This document shows positions 1,405 through 9,237 of a stretch of 64,000 nt of DNA, in pieces (within the stretch, counting starts at the first letter, position 1; every line of letters starts with the position of its first letter). Origin of the DNA: an uncultured Campylobacterales bacterium (GTDB taxonomy: Bacteria > Campylobacterota > Campylobacteria > Campylobacterales > Arcobacteraceae); assembly GCA_947503785.1 (NCBI GenBank), contig CANNFB010000008.1, positions 41,836 to 105,835 of the forward strand, written 5' to 3'. A program made the position numbers and the translations under genes. The notes beneath the pieces are model-generated. The model had not been told where the DNA came from. It saw nothing but the letters and a program-made list of their open reading frames with translations, and did not search any database.

Positions 1405-2931
1405 ATGGAAAATATCTTATCTATGCTGATATTTTTTCCAGCAGTAGCTGCTACTGTAGGATTTATGATTCACAAAGATTCTATGAGACAATTTGGTGTA
1501 GTTGTTACTATTGTTGAGTTTGTATTAGCTCTTTTATTATGGTATCACTTCGACAGTGATGTTGCACAAATGCAATTTGTTCAAACATTACCATTGATTA
1601 GCTCTTATGGTATTAATTATGTAGTTGGAGTTGATGGTGTATCATTATTCTTAGTTATTATGATTACATTTATGACTATGATTGCAGTAATTGGACTTAC
1701 AGAGAAAAAGGCAGTTAAAAACTTAATGATTACAATCCTTTACCTTGAAATGACAATGGTAGGGGTATTTGTATCTTTAGATTTAATTATGTTCTATATT
1801 TTCTGGGAATTAACACTTATTCCAATGTTTTATATCATTGGATTTTGGGGAGCTGAAAAAAGATTCCATGCAGCCATTAAATTCTTCTTATATACATTTA
1901 TAGGTTCTTTAATTATGCTTATTGGTATGTTATATTTTGGATATATTTACCACGAAACTACAGGTGTTTGGAGCTTCAATTTACTTGATTGGTATAGTGT
2001 TGTTTTACCATTTGATGTTCAATTATGGTTATTTATTGCATTTTTCTTTGGATTTGCTGTAAAAGTACCTATGTTTCCTTTCCATACTTGGTTACCTCTT
2101 GCACATAGTCAGGCGCCAACTATTGGATCTATTGTTTTAGCAGCTGTATTATTAAAAATGGAAACTTATGGATTTATTAGATTTTCTCTTCCATTATTTC
2201 CAGATGCAAGTGTATACTTTATGCCATTTATGGCGACACTAGGAATCATTGCTATTATTTATACGGCAATGGTTGCCTATGCACAAGAAGATATGAAACA
2301 AATGATTGCATATTCTTCAATTTCACATATGGGTGTAATTATTCTTGGAGTATTTGCATTAAATGCTGAAGGAATTACAGGAGCTGTATTTTTGATGATT
2401 GGACATGGTATTGTTTCAGGAGCACTGTTTATGAGTGTTGGTGTGCTTTATGATAGAAGAAAAACTAAGATGATTAAAGAGTTTGGTGGATTAGCAAAAA
2501 ATATGCCAATGTTCGCACTGGTTTATGCAGTTGTTCTAATGGCTTCTATTGGATTACCTTTAACAATTGGCTTTGTTGGTGAGTTTTTATCATTACTTGG
2601 ATTCTTTAAAGTTTCTCCAATCTTAACATTTATAGCATCTCTTACTATTGTATTAAGTGCTGTTTATATGTTAGCAATGTATAAAAGAACATTCTTTGGT
2701 GAATTAATAAAAGAAGAAAATAAAGAAATGAAAGATATTCATGGACGTGAACTGATAGCTTTAGGATCACTTGTATTTTTAATTATATCTTTAGGTATTT
2801 ACCCAAAAGTTATATTAGAACCTCTTGATGTTTCTGTTAAAAAAGTTATAAAAATTATGGATGTAAAATCTGTAGAAGAAAGAACAAAAGAAAGACTTCG
2901 TTCTTTAAATTCAATTGGGGAGGTTAAATAA
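1405..2931 (+). CDS. nuoM: NADH-quinone oxidoreductase subunit M
   Basis: 508 aa; FWELTLIPMFYIIGFWG, KVPMFPFHTWLPLAHSQAPTIGSIVLAAVLLKMETYG; operon position. Confidence 0.97.
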   Translation: MENILSMLIFFPAVAATVGFMIHKDSMRQFGVVVTIVEFVLALLLWYHFDSDVAQMQFVQTLPLISSYGINYVVGVDGVSLFLVIMITFMTMIAVIGLTEKKAVKNLMITILYLEMTMVGVFVSLDLIMFYIFWELTLIPMFYIIGFWGAEKRFHAAIKFFLYTFIGSLIMLIGMLYFGYIYHETTGVWSFNLLDWYSVVLPFDVQLWLFIAFFFGFAVKVPMFPFHTWLPLAHSQAPTIGSIVLAAVLLKMETYGFIRFSLPLFPDASVYFMPFMATLGIIAIIYTAMVAYAQEDMKQMIAYSSISHMGVIILGVFALNAEGITGAVFLMIGHGIVSGALFMSVGVLYDRRKTKMIKEFGGLAKNMPMFALVYAVVLMASIGLPLTIGFVGEFLSLLGFFKVSPILTFIASLTIVLSAVYMLAMYKRTFFGELIKEENKEMKDIHGRELIALGSLVFLIISLGIYPKVILEPLDVSVKKVIKIMDVKSVEERTKERLRSLNSIGEVK

Positions 2932-4430
2932 TGGAACCTATTTCAATTAATATTGACTCTTTAAACTTAGGAACTTTAGCACCAATGCTTATTGCAATAA
3001 TTGGTGCAATTAGTATTTTATTAACAGATTTATTTAATAAAGAAAAACATAAATCTTTATATGTGATTTTAGTAGTATTATTTTTAACATTTGATTTATT
3101 TACTCTTCTTGCATACAATGGTAAACCTGATGGTATGTTTGATTTAATGCTTCTTGATGGTATTGCGATATTATCTCAATGTATTATTATTGTAGGTGCT
3201 ATATTATTTATATTCTTATCTTTATCAAAACTAAGATTCCAAGAGTTTAGATATGCAGAGTTTTTTGCTCTTTATTTATTTACAGTTGCAGGATTCCAGT
3301 TTATGGTAAGTTCTGATTCATTAATTCTTATTTTTCTTGGATTGGAAACTGCATCTTTATCTTTATACACAATGATTGCAATGCATAATAAGATGACATC
3401 TATTGAAGCTGCTGTTAAGTACTTTACAATGGGTGCCTTAGCCGCTGCATTCTTTGCTTTTGGTGCGATGATTTTCTATGGTCTTACTGGTACTTTAGAT
3501 TTATCACAAATGTCAGAAATTATAGTTCAAGAAAATTTCTTATCTACTGATAATTATGCAAACTATGTATTTATCTTAACTGGTTTCGTATTTATGTTCG
3601 CAGCACTTGGATTTAAATTATCTTTATTCCCATATCATGTATGGGTTCCAGATGTATATAGAGGTTCAAGTTCTGCAATGGCTGGATTTTTATCTGTAGT
3701 ACCTAAAATGGCAGGTTTTGTTGTTGCAATTAGATTCTTTGATGTATTTATTGAAAGTAACGATATTATTATTCAAACTATGCTTTATGTGACTATTGTC
3801 TTAACAATAACAGTGCCAAACTTGATAGCCTTACACCAAACGGATATAAAAAGAATGCTTGCATATTCTTCAATATCAAATGCAGGTATGGCAATGGCTG
3901 CTGTTTATATAGGTACTACACAAGCAACTTCAGCACTGTTTTTATATTGGATTTTATTTACAATAACTAACTTTGGTGCCTTTGGTATGTTATGGTTAAA
4001 TAGAGGAAAAGAATCAAAAGATTACGAATCACCATATACTTTTGAAAAATATTCAGGATTAGTTCAAATTTCACCATTTGCAGCTTCAATTCTTGCAATG
4101 TTTCTTTTCGCTCTGACAGGACTTCCACCATTTGCATTATTCTGGGGAAAAATGTATTTAGTTGCAAGTGCAGTAAATGCAGGTCAAATTGCATTAGCTG
4201 TAATTATTGTATTAAACTCTGCAATTGCTGCTTATTATTATTTAAGACCAATTTCTTATATGTTCTTAAAAGACCCAATTGAAGGTGCTGATACTAAATT
4301 TATGCAAAATGCTTCAACTCCAATGAAATCAGTAATTGGTATTTGTGTATTTCTTGCAATTATATCAGTATTAACTGTAGAACCATTACTTCAAATTATT
4401 ACTTACTACGTTACTAGCGCAGGATTTTAG
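2931..4430 (+). CDS. nuoN: NADH-quinone oxidoreductase subunit N
   Basis: 499 aa; LFPYHVWVPDVYRGSSSAMAGFLSVVPKMAGF; overlaps the nuoM stop. Confidence 0.96.
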   Translation: MEPISINIDSLNLGTLAPMLIAIIGAISILLTDLFNKEKHKSLYVILVVLFLTFDLFTLLAYNGKPDGMFDLMLLDGIAILSQCIIIVGAILFIFLSLSKLRFQEFRYAEFFALYLFTVAGFQFMVSSDSLILIFLGLETASLSLYTMIAMHNKMTSIEAAVKYFTMGALAAAFFAFGAMIFYGLTGTLDLSQMSEIIVQENFLSTDNYANYVFILTGFVFMFAALGFKLSLFPYHVWVPDVYRGSSSAMAGFLSVVPKMAGFVVAIRFFDVFIESNDIIIQTMLYVTIVLTITVPNLIALHQTDIKRMLAYSSISNAGMAMAAVYIGTTQATSALFLYWILFTITNFGAFGMLWLNRGKESKDYESPYTFEKYSGLVQISPFAASILAMFLFALTGLPPFALFWGKMYLVASAVNAGQIALAVIIVLNSAIAAYYYLRPISYMFLKDPIEGADTKFMQNASTPMKSVIGICVFLAIISVLTVEPLLQIITYYVTSAGF

Positions 4431-4436
4431 GTAAAT

Positions 4437-4467
4437 ATTCTAAGCATTTATTTTAAATGCTTAGAAT
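4437..4467 (+). terminator. Perfect 14-bp hairpin after nuoN (attctaagcattta-ttt-taaatgcttagaat)
   Basis: Read directly: 14-bp inverted repeat, 3-nt loop, 6 bp after the nuoN stop; downstream U-tract is weak. Confidence 0.7.
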
Positions 4468-4517
4468 TATTGTAAAATCTTTGTAAAAAACAAATACTTT
4501 CTATGCTTTTATTCTCT
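4437..4517 (+). repeat. Left copy of ~81-bp imperfect direct repeat flanking the SBP/kinase/regulator cassette
   Basis: Aligns ungapped to 8701-8781 with about 12 mismatches by eye; 25-bp identical core ttagaattattgtaaaatctttgta (4461-4485 and 8725-8749). Confidence 0.85.
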
Positions 4518-4640
4518 TCTTATAAAATCTTTTATAGATAAATATAGTTATTATGGATATAATATTAAAGCTTATTTATAAAAAGTAAAAATAATTTTCT
4601 TTAAAAATAATTACTTACAACCCTATAGTAAAGGATTTTT

Positions 4641-5918
4641 ATGCAAAATAACAATCGAAGAGATTTTTTAAAGCATAGTTCTAAAATTGTATTAGGTGCA
4701 GCTTGTTCAATTGGATTTCCATCAATATTAACTGCAAAAAATAAAAGACCCACGATAAAAATTGTTGGTACTCATGTAACATTACAAGAAGAAATTCGAT
4801 TAAGAGCACAAAAAGAACTAGATATAAATATAGAATTTTATCCAGGAGGAAGTGCTGAAGTTTTATTAAAAGCGACGCTAGATCCTTCCTCTTTTGATAT
4901 ATATGAACAATGGTCAAATAGTATAAAACCACTTTGGTTATCTGACTCAATTGCAGCAATAGATACAAAAAAATTAAGCTATTGGGATGAAATAAATTCA
5001 TTATCTAAAACAGGTAAAATTTCTGACAATGCAAAAATAGGATTAGGTGATTCACCTAATAAAATACTTTATATCCAAGAAGACGGAAGCTTAGGCTCAA
5101 ATCCTAGCGAAGAAATTAGTTTTATGCCTTATGTTCATAATGTAGATTCCTTTGGATACAACACAGACTTTGTTAAAGAAGGTATACATTATGAGACTGA
5201 GAGTTGGGCTTGGTTATTAGATGAAAGTTATAAAGGAAAAGTTGCATTAGTAAATGATCCAACAATTGGACTCTTTGATGCAGCGCTTGCAGTAAAGGCA
5301 AAAGGTTTAATGGATTTTAAAGATATGGGAAATATGACTATATCTGAAATAGATAAACTTTTTGACATACTAATTGATTATAAACAAAATGGTCATTTTA
5401 GAGGTGTTTGGTCTTCAGTTCCACACTCTATTGAACTAATGAGAAGTAAACAAGTTTATATTGAAAGTATGTTTTCTCCTGCGGTATCTAGTTTAAATGG
5501 ACAAGGTATCCCTTGTCGATATGCAGCTCCAAAAGAAGGATATAGAGCTTGGCATGGAGTTATGTGCCTATCAAGTAATTCAAAAAATGAACAAAAAGAA
5601 GCAGCTTATAAATATATGAATTGGTGGCTTTCAGGTTGGGCAGGGGCTCATATTGCTAAACAAGGTTATTATATATCAAATCCACAACGATCAAAACAAT
5701 ATATGACCCAAGATGAGTGGGATTACTGGTATAAGGGAAAAAAAGCAGCTTCAAATCTAAAAGGAACAGATGGTAAAATATCAGTTTTAAAAGGTCAAAT
5801 TAGAAGTGGTGGTTCTTATCAAAAAAGATTTGAAAATATATCTATTTGGAACAGTGTTATGCCAAATTATGAGTATACATTAAAAAAATGGAATGAATTT
5901 GTTCTAGCAAGAGCATAA
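4641..5918 (+). CDS. Periplasmic extracellular solute-binding protein, twin-arginine signal (PotD-like)
   Basis: N-terminal NNRRDFLKHSSKIVLGAAC Tat-like signal; binding-protein fold features; no ABC permease/ATPase genes adjacent. Confidence 0.75.
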   Translation: MQNNNRRDFLKHSSKIVLGAACSIGFPSILTAKNKRPTIKIVGTHVTLQEEIRLRAQKELDINIEFYPGGSAEVLLKATLDPSSFDIYEQWSNSIKPLWLSDSIAAIDTKKLSYWDEINSLSKTGKISDNAKIGLGDSPNKILYIQEDGSLGSNPSEEISFMPYVHNVDSFGYNTDFVKEGIHYETESWAWLLDESYKGKVALVNDPTIGLFDAALAVKAKGLMDFKDMGNMTISEIDKLFDILIDYKQNGHFRGVWSSVPHSIELMRSKQVYIESMFSPAVSSLNGQGIPCRYAAPKEGYRAWHGVMCLSSNSKNEQKEAAYKYMNWWLSGWAGAHIAKQGYYISNPQRSKQYMTQDEWDYWYKGKKAASNLKGTDGKISVLKGQIRSGGSYQKRFENISIWNSVMPNYEYTLKKWNEFVLARA

Positions 5919-5927
5919 GGTGTAAAT

Positions 5928-8228
5928 ATGATATTTCCTTCTCTAAAAATAAAAAATAAAATTTATACTCTTAGTATATTAGCTGGGATATTCTTTATTA
6001 TAATAACTATTATAACATTTCAAAGCCTTCAAAAATTGGATAATGATTTTAATGAATATACAAAAATAAATAAAAATGCAAAAAACTATATTAACATGAC
6101 AAATGAAGTTGAAAAACTAAAAAAACATGTACAAGAATTTACAGATACTGGATATAAAAATGCAGCAAAAAAAGCAAAAGATGTTTATAAAAATATACTT
6201 CCTTTATTAGAGAATAATGAATCTTTAAATTATGAAAAGTTAAATGAAAATGTAAAATCTATAAAATTTCATCTTGATAGGTTTTATCAAAATTTCTTAA
6301 AGGTTGAAAAACAAAGAAGTAAAAGAGATAAGCAAAGAATTCAAATTAGAGATTATGCTAATTTGGTAGAAAAAGAGTTAAAAGAGATTATAAATATAAC
6401 AGAAGATACAAATAAAAGAATAAAAATATTTAAGCTACATATAAAAATACTTGAAAGTGAAAAGTCAGCATTTAAATACTTCGATTCCTTAAATAATAAA
6501 TATGTGCTCAATTCAAAAAAATCTTTAAAAAATATCAAGAATGATATTGATTTATATATAAAAATAGAAAAAAATCAATTAATAAAAATTAGACTAATAA
6601 AAGCAAGGCAATATTTAGAAAAGTATTCTAATATTTTTCTAAAATCTGTACAGCATACAAAAGGATATCTTTCTCTTACTAATGTTGTAATGGCAGCAGA
6701 AGCCTATGAAATAATCTTCCATGCAGAGAGAATAAGTATACAAGCCCAAAAAACTATGGACAATATACAAAATGATTTTGATGAAAAAATCAGTCAAAAC
6801 AATAAAGAACTTATTCTGGTTTTCCTACTATTTTTTGTTATTATGATAATAACATCTATATATATTACAAAAAGTATTATTAAGCCAATTAGAATATTAA
6901 GCCAAACTTTCAACTCTTTAAGCAAAGGAAACTTAAATATAAATATTCCTGAATATACTTTAAAAGATGAAATATCTGAATTATCTGAAGCGGCTGCAAC
7001 TTTTCAAAATAAAAATATTCAAACAGTAAACCTACTTGAAAAAGCAGACAAACTAACAGCTGAGCTTTTAAATAAAGATGAACAGCTAAATGTAGCAACA
7101 CAAAGTGCTCAAATTGGTATTTGGAACTATAATTTAAAAGAAAAAAAATTAATTATTGATGAAATAATGCATTCATTATATGGAATTAAAAATGATATAA
7201 ATAGTATTTCTGATTATAATAACTGGAAAGAGTGCATACATCCACAAGATAAAGATAATGTAATATCACTATTTAAAGGATTTTTAGAGAATAATGAGAA
7301 ATTTGACACTAAATTCAAAATTATAAAAAAGGGTACAAAAGAAATTAGATATATAAAAGCTTATGCAGTATTAACAAAAGATAAAGAAGGTTCTGTTTCT
7401 CATATTATTGGTGTAAACTATGATATTACTGATTTTGAATTACTTACAAATAAATTAGAAAAAAGAGTTGAAGAGGAAGTTTATAAACAAAGAGAGCAAG
7501 AGCAAGCACTTATTCAGCAATCAAAACTAGCCTCTATGGGTGAAATGATTAGTGCTATTTCTCACCAATGGAGACAACCTTTAAATGCAGTAGCTATATA
7601 TCTTCAAGATTTAATAAGTGCTCAAAAACATGGTGAATTAGATGTTACTTACTTAAAAGAAAGTGTAACTAAATGTAGAGAACAAATAAATTATATGTCA
7701 AATACAATTGAGGATTTTAGAAATTTCTTTAATCCCGTTTCAAATAATGAAGATATGAACTTAAAAGAGATTATTAAAATATCTGTTAACTTGTTTGAAG
7801 CTCAATTAAAAAATAACTCTGTTAAAGTAAATTTTAATTTTGATGAAAAGACAGATTATACTCTGTTTGGGAATTCAAATCACTTAAAACAAGCACTTGC
7901 GAATTTACTGAGTAATTCAATTTATTCTATAAAAGATAGAGAATCAAAAGACTTGGATAAAGAGTATAGAGGAAATATTATAATTCATTTAAATAAAACT
8001 TCAAAAGCAATGATTATTGAAGTTATTGACAATGGAATAGGTATTAAAAAATCTTCATTTAATAGGGTTTTTGAACCATATTTTACAACAAAGAAACAAG
8101 GAGAAGGTTCAGGAATTGGATTATATATGACCAGAACCATTTTAGAAAAATATTTTAATGGAAAAATAAGTTTAGAAGCTTTAGAAGAAGGAGTATCTGC
8201 TAAAATTGAACTTCCAATAAATAAGTAA
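5928..8228 (+). CDS. Membrane sensor histidine kinase (helical sensor, HAMP, PAS, HisKA, HATPase)
   Basis: N-terminal TM, SIIKPIRILSQTF HAMP, LASMGEMISAISHQWRQPLNAV H-box, VIDNGIGI and GEGSGIGLYM ATP-binding motifs. Confidence 0.92.
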   Translation: MIFPSLKIKNKIYTLSILAGIFFIIITIITFQSLQKLDNDFNEYTKINKNAKNYINMTNEVEKLKKHVQEFTDTGYKNAAKKAKDVYKNILPLLENNESLNYEKLNENVKSIKFHLDRFYQNFLKVEKQRSKRDKQRIQIRDYANLVEKELKEIINITEDTNKRIKIFKLHIKILESEKSAFKYFDSLNNKYVLNSKKSLKNIKNDIDLYIKIEKNQLIKIRLIKARQYLEKYSNIFLKSVQHTKGYLSLTNVVMAAEAYEIIFHAERISIQAQKTMDNIQNDFDEKISQNNKELILVFLLFFVIMIITSIYITKSIIKPIRILSQTFNSLSKGNLNINIPEYTLKDEISELSEAAATFQNKNIQTVNLLEKADKLTAELLNKDEQLNVATQSAQIGIWNYNLKEKKLIIDEIMHSLYGIKNDINSISDYNNWKECIHPQDKDNVISLFKGFLENNEKFDTKFKIIKKGTKEIRYIKAYAVLTKDKEGSVSHIIGVNYDITDFELLTNKLEKRVEEEVYKQREQEQALIQQSKLASMGEMISAISHQWRQPLNAVAIYLQDLISAQKHGELDVTYLKESVTKCREQINYMSNTIEDFRNFFNPVSNNEDMNLKEIIKISVNLFEAQLKNNSVKVNFNFDEKTDYTLFGNSNHLKQALANLLSNSIYSIKDRESKDLDKEYRGNIIIHLNKTSKAMIIEVIDNGIGIKKSSFNRVFEPYFTTKKQGEGSGIGLYMTRTILEKYFNGKISLEALEEGVSAKIELPINK

Positions 8229-8240
8229 TTATTGGAAGTT
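8209..8240. terminator. Palindrome shared by convergent genes (aacttccaataa-N8-ttattggaagtt)
   Basis: Perfect 12-bp stem, 8-nt loop, overlapping the 3' ends of both the kinase and the response regulator. Confidence 0.75.
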
Positions 8241-8594
8241 TTCCAAAATATATTGTTCTATTTCATCAACATCAATAGGTTTATTAAAGCACTTAACATT
8301 CATTCTTTCAAGTTCAGATAATTGTTCTGACGAGGATTCCCCCGTCATAACAATAATAGGCTGAATACTAGGGAAATTCTTTTTAACCTCTTTAATCAAT
8401 TCAACACCATTCATTCGAGGCATTACAATATCACTCATAATTAAATCTACTTCTTTACTTTCACATACTTTTAAAGCGTCAATTCCATCTTCAGCAACAT
8501 AACAGTCCCTAAAGACTCTTTTAAAAATCCTTTGCATACTATGTCTAATACTTTCAATATCATCAACTATTAATAAGGACTTATCGATTTTCAT
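8229..8594 (-). CDS. Single-domain response regulator (CheY-like receiver)
   Basis: 121 aa; LLIVDDIESIRHSM, DLIMSDIVMPRMNG, PIIVMTGESS, CFNKPID; no output domain. Confidence 0.9.
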   Translation of the reverse strand: MKIDKSLLIVDDIESIRHSMQRIFKRVFRDCYVAEDGIDALKVCESKEVDLIMSDIVMPRMNGVELIKEVKKNFPSIQPIIVMTGESSSEQLSELERMNVKCFNKPIDVDEIEQYILENFQ

Positions 8595-8700
8595 ATTTGT
8601 CTCTTTCTATTTTATTACTTTCATTATATTTTAATTTAAATTAAAAAGAAGCTAAAAAATAATTTAATTCTACATACCACGTTCTAGTTTTTGCTTAAAA

Positions 8701-8781
8701 ATTCTAACTATTAATCAAAAATGGTTAGAATTATTGTAAAATCTTTGTATGAAACAAATATTTTTTATACTTTTATTCTCT
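8701..8781 (+). repeat. Right copy of ~81-bp imperfect direct repeat; includes the start of the SLT gene
   Basis: See 4437-4517; offset constant at 4264 bp. Confidence 0.85.
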
Positions 8782-9237
8782 TTTTCTTTTTTATATTCAA
8801 ATTCATTAAAACTAAATTCTAATGACATAATAATTTTAAAAAAAATAAAATCTTTAACAAATGATAAGATGATGAAATATTCACTTATGGCAATTGCTAT
8901 AAAAGAATCTTCTTTAGGTAGATATGTAATTAATGCAAAGAGTGAAGATTACGGTTTATTTCAAGCAAATATAAAAACAGTACTTAGCCGTCAAAAAGTA
9001 AAAGATAATTCATATAATAGAAGTATCTACGCACAAAAACTTATTAATGATGTGGGTTTTGCAACTGCAAATGCAATCATAGAATTAGAATATTGGCAAA
9101 GTGTACATAAAGATAACTGGTTTAAAATATGGTCTAGCTATAATACTGGATGGAAATATAAAAGTAAAACAGGTATAAATTATGCGACAAAAGTATTTGA
9201 TATTATTAAAAAACTAAAGTTAGAATATAAACTATAA
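8749..9237 (+). CDS. Secreted transglycosylase SLT-domain protein
   Basis: Signal peptide; AIAIKESSLGRYVINAKSEDYGLFQANIKTV resembles the SLT ES/GLFQ motifs. Confidence 0.7.
   Translation: MKQIFFILLFSFSFLYSNSLKLNSNDIIILKKIKSLTNDKMMKYSLMAIAIKESSLGRYVINAKSEDYGLFQANIKTVLSRQKVKDNSYNRSIYAQKLINDVGFATANAIIELEYWQSVHKDNWFKIWSSYNTGWKYKSKTGINYATKVFDIIKKLKLEYKL

Follow-up and report, generated by a model that had tools for sequence, protein, structure and literature searches.

How does a block of new genes come to stand between two neighbours in a compact bacterial gene string while both neighbours apparently keep working? The question is raised by a three-gene sensing cassette that lies between nuoN and an SLT gene in the window (the whole 64,000-nt stretch of Arcobacteraceae DNA analysed here) and that is bounded on both sides by copies of the same short sequence. 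A preliminary description of the locus had proposed that nuoN-terminator-SLT was the ancestral order, that the cassette arrived by an insertion or duplication that copied the junction, and that each copy afterwards kept only the part still needed. By comparing the locus with its relatives, we arrive at a related reading, to which we give a probability of roughly 0.88: once this lineage had split from the sampled sister species, a foreign sensing cassette entered between nuoN and SLT, with about 82 bp of the junction being duplicated. The duplicated piece would have held the 3' end of nuoN together with the SLT promoter and start, leaving both neighbours working.

Results

Two diverged copies of one junction flank the cassette

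A gap-free alignment of the two flanks, 4437-4517 and 8701-8781, shows 12 mismatches among 81 positions and contains an identical core of 25 bp, just as first described. We place the full extent of the repeat at 4437-4518 and 8701-8782 (~82 bp, direct orientation, 85% identity between left and right copies; Table 1). Its edges are sharp, with about 5 of 10 positions matching per block outside the repeat and 6-10 inside. The flanks score 55 in their best ungapped alignment and 300 dinucleotide shuffles gave nothing above 21.5, which rules out chance similarity. Nowhere else in the window, scanned on both strands, are at least 50 of the 81 positions matched; furthermore, a genome scan with 131 bp of the left copy returned no third copy, the only extra match being the reverse complement of the left hairpin itself. 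With two copies genome-wide, a dispersed element, which the preliminary description had set against its own proposal, is ruled out. The remaining elements of that description were also borne out: the SLT start position reads AAA at 4485 in the left copy and ATG at 8749 in the right, and Pfam domains were found for all three proteins encoded between the copies, namely the solute-binding protein (SBP), the kinase and the regulator.

Table 1. Features of the nuoN-SLT locus, in window coordinates
Feature	Position	Strand	Basis
nuoN, NADH:quinone oxidoreductase chain N, upstream neighbour	2931..4430	+	Pfam PF00361
Left copy of the duplicated nuoN-SLT junction	4437..4518	+	85% identical to 8701-8782; sharp homology end
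nuoN 3' hairpin, left copy, 14 pairs, ancestral sequence	4437..4467	+	Fold, covariation, match to closest congeners
TAAAAT, -10-type box of the ancestral SLT promoter, intact in left copy	4473..4478	+	Conserved in relatives
Remnant of SLT codons 1-11, start ATG changed to AAA	4485..4518	+	Copy alignment
Inserted cassette, unique sequence, ~4.18 kb	4519..8696		Absent from relatives' empty site
TATAAT, candidate own -10 of the SBP-kinase operon	4558..4563	+	Promoter scan 10/12, 17-nt spacer; consensus match only
Solute-binding protein, twin-arginine type N-terminus, PotD/PotF fold	4641..5918	+	Pfam SBP_bac_8
Sensor histidine kinase: N-terminal sensor, HAMP, PAS_3, HisKA, HATPase_c	5928..8228	+	Pfam domains
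Single-domain response regulator, convergent with kinase	8229..8594	-	PF00072
Right copy of the duplicated junction	8701..8782	+	Alignment with left copy, shuffle score
Right-copy hairpin, diverged, still folding	8701..8731	+	RNA fold, 13 pairs
TAAAAT, predicted -10 of leaderless SLT promoter, 6 nt 5' of ATG	8737..8742	+	Conserved in relatives
SLT gene, lytic transglycosylase-like, intact via right copy	8749..9237	+	PF01464; orthologs directly 3' of nuoN in relatives

Relatives carry a single junction and no cassette

Across the 16 relatives aligned, the junction keeps one order: nuoN stop, short spacer, a hairpin of ~13 pairs, a TATTGTAAAAT-type box, 5-6 nt and the ATG. The eight nearest relatives having SLT all present an empty site, with the SLT start ~60 bp after nuoN; six belong to the same genus (G001, G002, G003, G005, G008, G009) and two to the same family outside it (G011, G026). 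In genus g10, 14 genomes have an SLT match directly after nuoN and no cassette, the spaced hairpin junction being absent from three of them (G064, G070, G086). G004 and the g10 genomes with ~130-bp gaps (G063, G080, G081, G083) no longer have SLT. The empty site in relatives carries exactly one junction copy. Read across these genomes, the comparison shows single-copy nuoN-hairpin-SLT to be the ancestral junction, in agreement with the order first proposed: nuoN runs straight into SLT, with one copy of the repeat, and the cassette is not found in deep branches. In G006 (locus L157), only a fragment of SLT without its start codon is left after nuoN, and an unrelated gene of ~260 aa comes next; this decay is an independent event at the same site as the window locus.

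The three cassette genes are absent from these one-copy relatives. The SBP is present in 1 of 104 family genomes and in 4 of 399 genomes of the order, no other family genome sampled has a kinase match at 1e-60, and the regulator has no close homolog, the best match among 40 relatives being 40% identical. In a tree, the window SBP pairs with that of Ca. Thiovulum of the same order (SH-aLRT 96; its contig was identified with order member G177), which also supplies the only full-length kinase match, at 31%. Plasmids gave no DNA match to the cassette and only SBP matches below 60% identity, and phages gave no SBP match, so a plasmid or phage source was rejected; the plasmid search likewise yielded no candidate donor that carries a piece of the junction. 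Empty one-copy sites together with this distribution uphold the claim that the cassette arrived by an insertion that copied the junction.

Shared sites point to a duplication within this lineage

Six sites set both copies apart from the four closest congeners, and at three of these no member of the 16 relatives has the shared state; four of the six fall in the SLT part. These shared derived sites trace both copies to a junction belonging to this lineage itself, and on their evidence the duplication lies inside this lineage, after its split from the four closest congeners. The comparison uses one genome per species, and the event is placed on the branch of one genome only. The identity between left and right copies (85%) lies within the range of congeneric species pairs (84-89%), and the event is therefore not recent. 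A FastTree of the repeat also joins the two copies, with a support of just 0.77 and G011 misplaced, so the argument rests on the shared sites.

The copies have changed in different places. Among the polarised changes, the 5 derived in the right copy are confined to the hairpin and the 4 derived in the left copy to the region of the SLT start, a split with P = 0.008; a further 3 differences between the copies are of undecided polarity. The alignment shows that the left copy has kept the ancestral hairpin and lost the SLT start, and that the right copy has kept the -10 box and the SLT frame. To this extent the complementary decay proposed earlier, with each copy keeping only what it needed, holds up; however, the pairing of the right hairpin is preserved, the RNA still folding well, and the left -10 box is intact although nuoN needs none.

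The neighbouring proteins add a further asymmetry. The nuoN protein has 90-94% amino acid identity to its closest congeners, and the window SLT protein is 83-85% identical to those of G001, G003 and G005, which are 90-91% identical among themselves; unlike SLT, nuoN shows no extra divergence of this genome from its three closest congeners. Given the extra SLT divergence beside a normal nuoN, the right side of the locus may have a more complex history.

The nuoN 3' hairpin varies fast and keeps its pairing

The left hairpin has the perfect 14-pair stem that had been described (-14.6 kcal/mol, z -5.2), although its description as a terminator is less secure: the hairpin has no clean U tract, and a consensus scan reports no canonical intrinsic terminator there, so that "nuoN 3' hairpin" is the safer name. 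The right hairpin had been called decayed to about 8 bp, which is correct for its uninterrupted Watson-Crick pairs at the DNA level (8); as RNA, however, it forms 13 pairs including one U-G (-11.9 kcal/mol, z -5.8), and one stem pair has both bases exchanged relative to the left, from G-C to C-G, a double compensatory change. The right hairpin is diverged and not a decayed remnant, and fits relaxed decay poorly. Covariation across 18 junctions agrees with a maintained stem, with 97% of cells paired, 16 double-change cells observed against 5.6 expected, and a score of 0.232 against 0.107 that was reached in 0 of 500 shuffles, slid registers all being far worse. By edit distance, the right hairpin lies 2-4 from hairpins of genus g10 and at least 6 from those of its own genus, and the left hairpin lies 3 from one g10 hairpin; the hairpin sequences are fast-varying. 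In G004, which has lost SLT, the hairpin is retained with one changed stem pair and the box is altered to TTATTCTAAAG, a pattern that fits the hairpin as belonging to nuoN and the box to SLT.

The box predicts a leaderless SLT transcript

A TAnAaT-type box stands 5-6 nt before the SLT ATG in 16 of 16 relatives aligned. In C. jejuni, leaderless mRNAs have been mapped with gnTAnaAT promoters (PMC3847290); as box and spacing both match these, we predict that SLT is probably read from a leaderless mRNA. The intact box of the left copy could provide an extra promoter for the cassette, and the left copy may now act as a leadered one. Were its ATG restored, a leader peptide of ~18 codons (4485-4541) would be read from the left copy; the change of ATG to AAA abolishes this putative peptide, and the -10 box stays.

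The cassette encodes an SBP of a family paired with sensors

A structure model of the SBP (pLDDT 87.5) finds its best PDB match in VcPotD1 with norspermidine (TM-score 0.64 by query length, 15% identity), and the fold matches VcPotD1 and PotF at 13-18% identity; a polyamine-like ligand is, on this modelled likeness, no more than a lead. SBP-related loci number 71 in named genomes of many phyla, and in 64 of the 69 other loci that could be assessed, the SBP gene is followed, at a median gap of 9 nt, by one with the same sensor domain. By motif, the outputs of these paired sensors are mostly kinases or hybrid kinases with few GGDEF proteins (Pfam finds GGDEF in L073 and kinases in six others); the window version joins the common sensor domain to a PAS-kinase. 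Such regular pairing suggests that this SBP family is probably dedicated to signalling. At one locus (L063, in G059), the SBP is an orphan beside an unrelated gene.

The nuoN-mqn interval holds other inserts

The nuoN-mqn distance is ~560-630 bp in most SLT-bearing family genomes, and 1.2-10 kb in eight others (G006, G002, G086, G101, G105, G108, G103, G113). Genes other than SLT are found in this interval in G002, G006, G086 and several genomes of genus g19; the enlarged intervals hold differing genes, several of them for signalling proteins (at loci including L157 in G006, L158 in G002 and L159-L164). In genus g19 (L159, L160, L161), the interval has a different sensor cluster, consisting of a large binding-protein-like gene, a kinase and a regulator; in G108 and G103, such a cluster is accompanied by a putative molybdopterin-oxidoreductase-like gene with a twin-arginine signal, identified by eye. 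At eight other inserts in the interval, the search for a flanking repeat returned only chance-level matches (7.5-13, against 55 here).

Discussion

The geometry of the locus and the shared ancestry of its copies fit a single-crossover insertion-duplication, the route that we favour from the sequence comparison: circular or recircularised DNA with the cassette and a junction fragment would most likely have integrated by a single crossover, natural transformation being one possible path by which the donor DNA entered. Indeed, single-crossover insertion-duplications of 109-950 bp have been documented experimentally in E. coli (PMC3240628), and natural transformation is known from Aliarcobacter butzleri, a member of the wider Arcobacter group (PMC8308473). 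As in the E. coli recombinants, the foreign DNA here is flanked by a short direct duplication of the target (~82 bp); the window event differs from them in being natural, older and read from sequence, with shorter homology, both copies diverged and no vector sequence (PMC3240628).

A different account of the same geometry sees in the copies no decay but the reciprocal products of one crossover inside the 25-bp core, in which the host junction recombined with an incoming, already diverged one, such that the left copy would join the host hairpin to an incoming SLT stub and the right copy an incoming hairpin to the host SLT. The differences do split cleanly at the core, with the 5 right-copy changes on one side and the 4 left-copy changes on the other; moreover, the right hairpin is intact with its double compensatory change and lies nearer to g10 than to its own genus, so it could have arrived with the insert. 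Yet the four of six shared sites that fall in the SLT part make the right half of the left copy closest to that of the right copy, and the account would require an incoming junction that was near the host's in its SLT part and g10-like in its hairpin. Hairpins vary fast, the left one itself being no farther than 3 from a g10 hairpin, and the core is also the boundary between two functions, where separate decay predicts the identical split. We consider this account unlikely, albeit the strongest competitor, and slightly less likely still the corollary that a one-step crossover in the 25-bp -10 core made the hairpin-promoter core a landing site at which a cassette costs neither side its function. 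An improbable alternative is that a tandem duplication of hairpin and SLT came first, the first SLT body being later replaced by the cassette with an 82-bp stub left behind. SLT decays in place beside an unrelated insert in G006, such that loss at this site does occur; against this, the scheme needs two events, and no convincing SLT body or 3' end lies between stub and cassette or before the right copy, a search inside the insert for a lost SLT body or nuoN end having returned only weak AT-rich matches.

Site-specific integration shares with the locus an insert between direct repeats and an intact adjoining gene, and perhaps the repeat is the att core of an integrase-driven island that later lost its integrase, one copy keeping the start of the interrupted gene as an attL/attR pair would. 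But the cassette has no integrase, the genome's 7 integrase-family (PF00589) matches all lie on contigs other than that of the window, the insert measures only 4.2 kb, the site is an ordinary gene junction, the repeat is just 85% identical, and other inserts in the same interval stand without flanking repeats; we regard an att origin as highly improbable. The cassette has three genes only and no mobility gene. Target duplications of transposons are usually far shorter than 82 bp, and with no transposase present, a transposon target-site duplication is ruled against. A clean site can be regained when direct repeats recombine, and the cassette might on those grounds be ancestral and cleanly lost in all relatives; this we find barely credible, as it needs independent losses family-wide (the SBP is absent from 103 of 104 genomes), and the six sites shared by the copies and not by close congeners make the duplication younger than those splits. 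Insertion of a foreign cassette with duplication of the junction thus stays our preferred reading.

As for the function of the cassette, we propose a co-receptor step in which the periplasmic PotD-type protein would bind a small ligand, possibly a polyamine-like amine, and would then dock on the periplasmic domain of the kinase; the kinase would in turn phosphorylate a receiver, plausibly the single-domain protein at 8229-8594. By fold and gene order, a close parallel is NspS-MbaA, a polyamine sensing pair of Vibrio cholerae and Sinorhizobium meliloti (PMC9993111), where a PotD-type periplasmic protein likewise adjoins a membrane sensor that has a HAMP domain and a portion in the periplasm; the window partner is a HAMP-PAS-HisKA-HATPase kinase, whereas MbaA has GGDEF-EAL. 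Adjoining genes for a periplasmic binding protein, a sensor kinase and a regulator also recall TorT-TorS-TorR and AioX-AioS-AioR, in which AioX is related to PhnD, and LuxP/TorT are distinct again (PMC5908839). In contrast to these systems, the window SBP, an SBP_bac_8 protein of PotD/PotF fold, belongs to neither the TorT nor the AioX family, and the regulator consists of a receiver alone, encoded on the other strand and convergent with the kinase.

The locus clearly exemplifies an insertion after which both neighbours apparently still work, and is not a new type of element. As a clean case whose changes can be polarised, it shows how a compact bacterial gene string can take up new genes with the neighbours unbroken: the duplicated segment is exactly the 3' hairpin of the upstream gene plus the promoter and start of the downstream one. 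Within the family, it adds to the repeated uptake of inserts by the nuoN-mqn interval; beyond it, the cassette points to a widespread and apparently dedicated SBP-sensor pair.
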